The notes under the pieces are model-generated. The model made no database searches. It was not told the DNA's origin and saw only the letters and a list, made by a program, of their open reading frames with translations. A DNA stretch of 39,481 bases from Pirellulales bacterium (GTDB lineage: Bacteria; Planctomycetota; Planctomycetia; Pirellulales; S012-138): positions 1-39,481 of the forward strand of contig JALCBR010000040.1 in the NCBI GenBank assembly GCA_028066245.1, read 5' to 3'. The translations under genes were made by a program, and so were the position numbers. Every line of letters begins with the position of its first letter. The first letter of the stretch is position 1. This document shows positions 30,702 to 33,803 of the stretch, piece by piece.

Positions 30702-31478
30702 ATGGCAAAGACAACCGATGTCGGCGTCTCCGCGGATCTTTCCAATCAGGTTGCGTTGGTCACAGGAGCATCTCGAGGGATTGGCCGAACGATTGCCGAA
30801 GCCTTGGCCGCATGCGGGGCGAAAGTGGCTTGTGTCGCCAGGAACGAAGAACGGCTGCAGGAGGTCGTGGAGAGCATTAGCTCAGCCGGAAACGTCGCTC
30901 AAGCTTGGACTTGCGACGTTAACGACAAGGATTCGATCGAAAAGGTCGTGGATCGCGTCGCCGAAACGTGGGATCGGTTGGATATCCTCGTCAACAACGC
31001 CGGTATCACCCAGGATACGTTGTTGCCACGAATGTCTGATGAGCAATGGGACGATGTCGTGCGGACAAACCTCCGCAGCGTCTTTCTCTTCACGAGGGCG
31101 GCCACGCGGCACATGATGAGCCAACGTTATGGGCGCGTCATTAACCTCTCAAGCGTCTCCGGTGTCGTCGGCAACAAAGGCCAATCAAACTATGCGGCAA
31201 CGAAAGCCGGAATCATCGGCTTCACCAAGTCCGTGGCCTTGGAATTGGCCGGCCGTAAGGTTACGGCCAACGCTGTCGCTCCGGGCTTTATCGAAACCGA
31301 CATGACCGCCGCACTCGGGGACGCCCTCAAGGACGAAGCCAAGAAACGAATCCCTTGCAAACGGCTCGGCTCGTCAGAAGACATCGCCGCCGCAGTTGTA
31401 TTTCTTGCCAGTAGCGGCGCTGCCTATCTGACGGGACAAACCCTCGTCGTTGATGGCGGCATGACGCTGGGACCGTGA
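30702..31478 (+). CDS. fabG: 3-oxoacyl-[ACP] reductase
   Basis: NADPH-dependent reductase of fatty acid elongation, a short-chain dehydrogenase of 258 residues from the ATG at 30702. Visible are the cofactor loop TGASRGIG (21-28), NNAG (98-101), the catalytic Ser151, Tyr164 and Lys168 (NLSSVSG...SNYAATKAG), PGFIETDMT and the closing YLTGQTLVVDGGM. It follows fabD. The usual next genes (acpP, fabF) are absent: after the stop comes a convergent selenoprotein gene at 123 bp. Many short-chain dehydrogenases resemble FabG, but the linkage to fabD supports the name. Confidence 0.92.
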   Translation: MAKTTDVGVSADLSNQVALVTGASRGIGRTIAEALAACGAKVACVARNEERLQEVVESISSAGNVAQAWTCDVNDKDSIEKVVDRVAETWDRLDILVNNAGITQDTLLPRMSDEQWDDVVRTNLRSVFLFTRAATRHMMSQRYGRVINLSSVSGVVGNKGQSNYAATKAGIIGFTKSVALELAGRKVTANAVAPGFIETDMTAALGDALKDEAKKRIPCKRLGSSEDIAAAVVFLASSGAAYLTGQTLVVDGGMTLGP

Positions 31479-31601: not shown

Positions 31602-31847
31602 TCATGAGTTGGCGGAAAGCCGCTGACCAACGAGGTCTACCATGTGGTCTTCTTGTGGGAACTCCCCGGTGTCCAGCTTGGAATACACCAGCTCTCCGTC
31701 GAGCTTGAGCTCAAAGGCGCCGCCGCCGGAGGGAATCAGCGTCAGGCCGGAAATCTGTTGCTTGTATGCTTCCAGGAGCTTGGTCGTCAAACTGACGGCC
31801 TGAGGCTCGTAATTTCACATAGAGCAGTAGCGTAGCTCAACGTTCAC
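31602..31847 (-). CDS. SelW-like (Rdx family) selenoprotein, Sec encoded by in-frame TGA
   Basis: A thioredoxin-fold redox protein of the SelT/SelW/SelH family, 81 residues if the TGA at 31815-31817 is read as selenocysteine. It starts at GTG 31847, with GGAG seven bases upstream. The N-terminus reads NVELRYCSM-Sec-NYEP, giving the family redox motif Cys-x-x-Sec straight after the first beta strand. The rest (PSGGGAFELKLDGELVYSK, TGEFP) is typical Rdx sequence and is in the same frame. Without readthrough the open part would begin at a TTG and lack the first strand and the redox site. A SECIS-like hairpin follows the TGA. A Cys-to-stop mutation or base error is the alternative. The gene converges with fabG and lies 280 bp downstream of ettA on the same strand. 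Confidence 0.82.
31776..31808 (-). promoter_or_regulatory. Candidate bacterial SECIS element inside the selenoprotein gene
   Basis: On the minus strand, 21 nt after the UGA, a 5-nt apical loop AGUUU (31793-31789) sits on the stem CGUC/GACG. A C-A mismatch, two G-C pairs, a small internal loop and an outer GAGC/GCUC stem (31808-31805 with 31779-31776) follow. A G in the first two loop positions and 16-37 nt spacing from the UGA are, as I recall the bacterial SECIS consensus, the required features, and both are met. SelB would bind it to direct Sec insertion. Confidence 0.65.
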
Positions 31848-31931
31848 AGATGTTCTCCGCAGAGTGGGACAGACGAAGCCCCGCAGTTGTGAATTGACTT
31901 AAATGATGATTCGTTGTTTTGAACCGCCGAA

Positions 31932-32126: not shown

Positions 32127-33803
32127 TCATTTCCGCACGAGCTTCTTGTAGCGGAACCGTTTGGGCTGATCCGCATCTTCCCCCAATCTCCTTCTGCGTT
32201 CTTCCTCATAGATCTGAAAGTTGCCTTCACACCAATTGGCTATGCCGTCGCCTTCAAACGCAAGGATATGCGTGGCGATCCGGTCGAGAAACCAGCGATC
32301 GTGGCTGACGACGACAGCACAGCCGGCGAAGTTGACCACTGCGTCTTCCAGAGCGCGGAGCGTGTCAACATCCAGATCATTGGTTGGTTCGTCCAGCAGC
32401 AACAAATTGGCTCCGCCACGAAGCAACTTGGCCAGGTGCACGCGGTTCCGTTCTCCGCCGGAAAGATTGCCGACTCGCTTTTGTTGATCCTGCCCAGTGA
32501 AGTTAAATCGAGCACAGTAAGCGCGCGCATTGATGGAGCGCCCGCCGAGATCAATCGTCTCGTATCCTCCAGAAATCTCTTCGTAGACCGTGTTCTCCGC
32601 AACCAAATCGTCACGCGATTGATCGACGTAGCCAAGTTCCACCGTCGAACCAATCCGTAGCGTTCCGCCATCAGGCTGTTGCTCTTGCGTGATCAATCGC
32701 AAGAGTGTGGTTTTGCCGGCGCCATTGGGCCCCACAATGCCAACGATTCCGCCGGCTGGCAGCTTGAACGACAGGTTCTCAAAAACAATGCGATTCTCAT
32801 ATTGCTTTGTCAGGCCGTCTGCCTCGACAACAAGATCACCCAAACGCTTGCCCGGCGGGATCTGGATCTCCAGTTCGTCGTTTCGCTCCTCGAATCGCTC
32901 GGACGCCATTTCTTCATAAGCGCTGATCCGGGCTTTGCTCTTAGCCTGACGCGCGCGGGGTGCCATGCGAATCCACTCCAATTCCCGGGCCAGCGTGCGT
33001 TGCCGGGCTTGCTGAGCTTTCTCTTCCTGGGCCAGGCGGTTTTGTTTTTGTTCCAGCCAGGAGGAATAATTTCCCTCCCAGGGAATGCCGCGTCCGCGAT
33101 CCAGCTCCAGGATCCAACCGGCAACGTTGTCGAGGAAGTAACGATCGTGCGTTACAGCAACGACCGTGCCGGGATAGTCGGCCAAGTGCCGCTCCAGCCA
33201 GGCGATGCTCTCGGCATCCAGGTGGTTGGTCGGTTCGTCAAGCAGGAGCAAATCAGGACGAGTCAGCAGCATCTTGCACAGCGCAACCCGGCGACGCTCG
33301 CCTCCAGAGAGCTTGGTCACATCCGCATCGCCAGGCGGCAGGTTCATGGCATCCATGGCGATTTCGATATGTCGATCCAGTTCCCAGGCGTCCTTGGCTT
33401 CGATATCGTCCTGGACGCGAGCCTGCTTTTCCAGAAGTTTTTCCATTTCTTCCGGTTCCATCGGCTCACCAAGCTGCATGCTGATTTCTTCAAACCGCTT
33501 CAGCAGGTTGCGCGTCTCTTCAACGGCTTCCTCGATATTGCCGCGGACGTCCTTTTCCGCATTGAGCTGAGGCTCCTGCGGGACAAACCCCCGCGTGTAC
33601 CCATCGGCCAGCTTGGCGACGCCGTCAAACTCGGTGATTTCACCGGCCATGATCTTGAGCAGCGTGCTCTTGCCGGCACCGTTGCGGCCCAGCACGCCGA
33701 TCTTGGCGCCAGGATAGAACGCGAGCCAGATATCCTTGAGAACTTCTCGCTGCTCAATCTTCTTTGTGAGATCGTGGATTTCAAAAATGTATTTCGCACC
33801 CAT
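32127..33803 (-). CDS. ettA: Energy-dependent translational throttle protein EttA (ABC-F)
   Basis: A soluble ABC-F ATPase that binds the ribosomal E site and gates entry into elongation according to ATP/ADP status. It has 558 residues from the ATG at 33803. Domain 1 has Walker A GRNGAGKST (39-47), signature LSGGERRRVALC and Walker B LLLLDEPTNHLD. Between the domains lies the charged P-site tRNA interaction motif (AQEEKAQQARQRTLARELEWIRMAPRARQAKSKARISAYEEM). Domain 2 has GPNGAGKTT, LSGGERNRVHLAKLL and LLLLDEPTNDLDVDT. The inserted arm region (about 95-150) and the overall length fit EttA rather than Uup or YheS. It is monocistronic, divergent from the winged-helix gene. Confidence 0.95.
   Translation of the reverse strand: MGAKYIFEIHDLTKKIEQREVLKDIWLAFYPGAKIGVLGRNGAGKSTLLKIMAGEITEFDGVAKLADGYTRGFVPQEPQLNAEKDVRGNIEEAVEETRNLLKRFEEISMQLGEPMEPEEMEKLLEKQARVQDDIEAKDAWELDRHIEIAMDAMNLPPGDADVTKLSGGERRRVALCKMLLTRPDLLLLDEPTNHLDAESIAWLERHLADYPGTVVAVTHDRYFLDNVAGWILELDRGRGIPWEGNYSSWLEQKQNRLAQEEKAQQARQRTLARELEWIRMAPRARQAKSKARISAYEEMASERFEERNDELEIQIPPGKRLGDLVVEADGLTKQYENRIVFENLSFKLPAGGIVGIVGPNGAGKTTLLRLITQEQQPDGGTLRIGSTVELGYVDQSRDDLVAENTVYEEISGGYETIDLGGRSINARAYCARFNFTGQDQQKRVGNLSGGERNRVHLAKLLRGGANLLLLDEPTNDLDVDTLRALEDAVVNFAGCAVVVSHDRWFLDRIATHILAFEGDGIANWCEGNFQIYEEERRRRLGEDADQPKRFRYKKLVRK

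Follow-up and report, generated by a model that had tools for sequence, protein, structure and literature searches.

Bacterial SelW-like selenoproteins with a CxxU redox motif have been described since at least 2005 and constitute a known family (PMC1088965, PMC1794560, PMC2398784, PMC13188914). The Sargasso Sea paper called the function of the SelW-like proteins unclear and noted an interaction with glutathione (PMC1088965), and the bacterial decoding of selenocysteine (Sec) by SelA, SelB, SelC and SelD has been summarised (PMC1794560). The window analysed here, a stretch of 39,481 nucleotides of contig JALCBR010000040.1 from a Pirellulales bacterium, includes a gene that has in common with the bacterial SelW-like genes (SELENOW-like, PF10262 Rdx, TIGR02174) the protein family, the size, the CxxU motif with Sec in the second position and a SECIS hairpin located just 3′ of the UGA. 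There is no essential difference between them, and the window gene is another, fairly ordinary member of this long-described family. It is almost certainly an intact planctomycete SelW-like selenoprotein gene with the UGA recoded as Sec.

The minus-strand frame was translated as 81 residues interrupted by a single internal TGA (Table 1). The readthrough product is VNVELRYCSM-U-NYEPQAVSLTTKLLEAYKQQISGLTLIPSGGGAFELKLDGELVYSKLDTGEFPQEDHMVDLVGQRLSANS-stop and its redox motif is Y-C8-S-M-U11-N-Y. The nearest in-frame stop upstream is a TAA at 31901, 17 codons 5′ of the GTG. The preliminary description, made from the letters alone, had proposed a frame that is open on both sides of the TGA, a GTG start with GGAG seven bases before it, and truncation of the gene by a standard gene caller. 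Translation and inspection of the sequence confirmed the frame and the start. As for the truncation, the list of stop-based open reading frames holds only a 62-amino acid piece after the TGA (31602-31790, TTG start), so a stop-based gene caller cuts selW down to its C-terminal 62 codons. A promoter-like match upstream of selW (31960-31932, 9 of 12) was too weak to be used.

Table 1. Location of selW, its signals and its neighbours in the window (the coordinates of selW include the terminal TGA).
Feature	Position	Strand	Remarks
SelW-like (Rdx family) selenoprotein gene	31602..31847	-	81 residues, GTG start, TGA stop at 31602-31604
In-frame TGA read as Sec	31815..31817	-	residue 11, second position of C8-S-M-U11; codon comparison with relatives
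Resolving Cys codon TGC	31824..31826	-	Cys8 of the CxxU motif; translation and alignment
Putative ribosome binding site GGAG	31855..31858	-	7 bases 5′ of the GTG; from sequence only
Bacterial SECIS-like hairpin just 3′ of the TGA	31782..31800	-	stem CGUCA/UGACG (31797-31793 paired to 31789-31785); apical loop with a G in its 5′ part
ABC-F type ATPase (EttA-like), upstream neighbour	32127..33803	-	about 280 bp from selW; EttA-like label inferred from the ABC_tran / ABC_tran_Xtn architecture
FabG-like short-chain dehydrogenase, downstream convergent neighbour	30702..31478	+	annotation

The readthrough product aligns with the Pfam Rdx profile along almost all of its length (70.3 bits, cut-off 22.6, 1.6e-19) and matches TIGR02174 with 66.2 bits (cut-off 34.2). 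Both scores exceed the curated cut-offs and, as the preliminary description had anticipated, the TGA aligns with the Sec/Cys of the conserved redox position of the family. The frame around the TGA is not due to chance, given the significance of the Rdx match and the location of the TGA at the conserved redox position. The protein also produced a near full-length match to NF041051 (SelTWH_Campy, SelT/SelW/SelH family (seleno)protein), of which it is a neighbour and not a member, since the score of 79.6 bits is below the curated cut-off of 88.

An AlphaFold2 model built from an alignment with 30 relatives, with Cys substituted for Sec, reached a mean pLDDT of 95 and a pTM of 0.82; the model from the single sequence was poor (pLDDT 51). 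The former includes a strand at residues 2-8 and a helix at residues 14-28. In it, the first strand ends with C8, and U11 lies in the turn leading to helix 1, the usual redox position. A comparison with PDB structures returned bacterial Rdx/SelW-related chains as the 21 best matches, followed by MIEN1 and mouse SelW. The SelW-related 2FA8, 2OBK and 3DEX were the best of all (query TM 0.80-0.90). The window protein is thus predicted to adopt the thioredoxin-like Rdx fold. The solved CxxC Rdx proteins 2FA8, 2OBK, 3DEX, 2P0G, 2OKA and 2OJL share this fold (query TM 0.79-0.90) at about 21-32% identity. Sequence alignments place a Cys at the position of the window protein's Sec in 2FA8 and 3DEX, and the same is presumably true of 2OBK, 2P0G, 2OKA and 2OJL. 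The fold is also common to mouse SELENOW (2NPB), although the sequence match is weak (E 0.3). Mammalian SELENOW has a CxxU motif, and the eukaryotic SECIS is located in the 3′UTR.

A codon-by-codon check of the 87 relatives in which the codon could be aligned showed TGA at the identical position in 83, which include Planctomycetes, Bacilli and records labelled Poribacteria and Sumerlaeota. The remaining four are distant and carry TGC there, i.e., they encode CxxC proteins. All additional loci inspected beyond these 87 kept the TGA. TGC/TGT or random stops at this codon accompanied by decay of the frame, which the preliminary description had named as signs against a selenoprotein, are not the pattern observed: the frame is intact in the relatives, with no case of decay. 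When 392 genomes of the phylum were searched, most matches contained an in-frame TGA, the position of which was checked for those matches that were fetched as loci.

The hairpin that follows the TGA was absent from the earlier reading and is the strongest evidence added in favor of Sec. It comprises nucleotides 15-33 after the UGA, with an apical GUU and the loop about 22-26 nt past the UGA. Folding of the 22-nt SECIS piece gave -7.5 kcal/mol (z -3.2), and over 70 nt the structure was moderately unusual (z -1.8). The z value against synonymous shuffles was about -1.0. The strong evidence for the SECIS is comparative rather than derived from folding of a single sequence. Among 116 unique sequences, the inner pairs 18-30, 19-29, 20-28, 21-27 and 22-26 form in 107, 110, 116, 106 and 116, respectively (91-100%), and 91% of the sequences have a minimum free energy below the average of their synonymous-codon shuffles. 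Two of the pairs (Ala17-Thr21 and Val18-Leu20) join third codon positions, which are weakly constrained by the protein. At Ala17/Thr21 the combinations GCC..ACG, GCT..ACA and GCG..ACC preserve the pair as C-G, U-A and G-C, and at Val18/Leu20 GTC..TTG and GTT..CTA/TTA preserve it as C-G and U-A; the counts of these compensatory synonymous changes ignore the kinship of the sequences, and the changes fall in several separate lineages.

Codon usage in the same segment is biased. Ser19 is encoded by AGT in 94/103 sequences, versus 26 of the 429 Ser codons located further 3′ in the same genes, and Val18 is GTC in 90/101. Sequences of the planctomycete branch mostly encode the AVSLT segment as GCC GTC AGT TTG ACG, which forms the SECIS, and the SECIS consensus of planctomycete selW emerges cleanly from the comparative set. 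The Bacilli selW genes have a different stem, GCG AGT TTC GC, that pairs around the same loop. The codon bias together with the covariation points to selection on the RNA and not on the protein alone. A minority of sequences (L034, L076, L086, L094, L101 and others) has GTG AGC CTG ACC, which breaks pairs 18-30 and 21-27; in these the hairpin is shifted by a few bases and has the loop CGUGA. A scan of the window with Rfam produced no match at gathering thresholds. Bacterial SECIS elements are poorly represented in Rfam.

The genes selA, selB, selC and selD, whose absence had been considered beforehand as an argument against Sec, are all present in the window's own genome, a 97.5% complete draft of 186 contigs. 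Profile searches identified SelA (549 bits), SelB (397 bits) and SelD (293 bits), each above its curated cut-off, and a tRNA-Sec with anticodon UCA (71.5 bits). The other RF01852 matches that were checked are ordinary Ser/Leu tRNAs; therefore, the number of RF01852 matches is unfit as a test of presence. This genome very probably decodes UGA as Sec. Within the order, selA scored over the cut-off in 14/17 genomes with a TGA-containing selW versus 10/41 without it (Fisher one-sided p=6e-5), a statistic that is indicative because the genomes are related. The three genomes with TGA-containing selW and no selA over the cut-off are MAGs of about 670-790 contigs. The SelD of the window's genome lies in an 840-residue frame (L018:1393-3915, minus strand) with an N-terminal oxidoreductase-like part and the active site CGGCGSK, and its sequence fits the known Ndh-SelD fusion type. 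Proteins of this type always carry CxxC (PMC2398784). A search of the same genome for a Sec-containing formate dehydrogenase (TIGR01591; L139-L146), the obvious candidate for a second selenoprotein, did not find one: none of the matches exceeded the cut-off or contained an internal stop.

The comparative evidence supports well the recoding of the UGA. The proposal of an expressed selenoprotein made in the preliminary description agreed with all computational tests, and the insertion of Sec in the host organism would proceed as follows. The ribosome would start at the GTG at 31847, and the SECIS hairpin (31800-31782) would recruit SelB bound to Sec-tRNA-Sec at the UGA (31817-31815), where Sec would be inserted. 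Translation would then run on and end at the TGA at 31602. The product would be a small oxidoreductase of the thioredoxin-like type. Sec11 probably acts as its attacking nucleophile, with Cys8 as the resolving thiol; this redox cycle and its substrate are proposed by analogy with the family.

A pseudogene, or a sequencing error that changed a Cys codon (TGC/TGT) to TGA, would look no different in a single draft genome, one base change from TGC being enough, and the four distant homologues do have TGC at the Sec codon. Nonetheless, the TGA is identical in the other 83 relatives, which come from independent assemblies and phyla, the SECIS is conserved and covaries, the frame is open to its end and the Sec machinery is intact. 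Since both the codon and the SECIS are conserved, this explanation is in practice refuted, with a negligible probability. Decoding of the UGA outside the Sec pathway, by code reassignment or by near-cognate readthrough to Trp or Cys, would leave an open frame that, taken alone, looks the same. However, selW itself terminates at a TGA, the genome possesses a tRNA-Sec with the UCA anticodon, SelA and SelB, and the hairpin after the UGA is conserved at synonymous sites, all of which makes non-Sec decoding very improbable. Pseudogene formation, sequencing error and code reassignment were rejected on the conserved TGA, the SECIS, the Sec machinery and the TGA terminator.

A further alternative is compatible with Sec insertion and differs in the substrate only: SelW could work in selenium supply, for example by passing reduced selenium on to SelD or by protecting SelD, instead of being a general thiol oxidoreductase. 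This role is possible, if on balance unlikely, and is suggested by the gene neighborhoods. The gene selD directly adjoins selW in 28/66 loci with longer flanks (L043-L108). Twenty of these are of the planctomycete type; 19 have a SelD-domain match downstream on the same strand at 26-254 bp, and one has an Ndh-SelD on the opposite strand. In all eight Bacilli loci selD is divergent upstream and selA lies downstream of selW, with selB further upstream in six. Examples are L054, L060 (Aquisphaera insulae strain JC669) and L073, and, for Bacilli, L098-L100, L102-L104, L106 and L107. The occurrence of different selW-selD arrangements in two groups suggests a functional coupling to selenium use. Against it, the sel genes of the window's genome are on other contigs with no linkage to selW, none of 16 order-level relatives shows linkage within 1.5 kb, and the linkage may mean no more than that the genes depend on selenium alike or are transferred together. 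Since neither the window's genome nor its closest relatives show it, the linkage is a lead, and a testable one, to the function of bacterial SelW-like proteins. It is rather doubtful that the Sec form of bacterial SelW serves selenophosphate synthesis by SelD as a dedicated partner rather than acting as a general antioxidant; if true, this would explain the position of selW next to selD in many planctomycetes and within the sel clusters of Bacilli, as well as why Cys almost never replaces Sec in the planctomycete selW branch. A partial search of the literature found no statement on a functional link between SelW and SelD. The ABC-F ATPase and FabG genes that flank selW in the window were not among its most recurrent neighbors in related loci and gave no functional clue; the ATPase is probably not functionally linked to selW.

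The selW-selD adjacency may be less ordinary than the window selW, and the same may be said of a UxxU form of the gene, in which both redox positions are TGA. A 2026 review gives SELENOW-like proteins as CxxU with one Sec, and the UxxU form is absent from its entry (PMC13188914). A pattern search of 298 genomes located this form in three planctomycete-related MAGs only: L064 (3001-3231), L069 (3001-3231, the same as L155 and L156) and L176 (G459). The SECIS is conserved in them. The first UGA is about 31 nt 5′ of the SECIS loop, and a single SECIS might in principle suffice for the two codons. L064 and L069 belong to two soil MAGs whose DNA is about 85% identical, and both genomes have strong tRNA-Sec matches. 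L172 (G498), a very close relative of L176 whose flanks match at 92-97% identity, carries TGC at the first position and is therefore CxxU.
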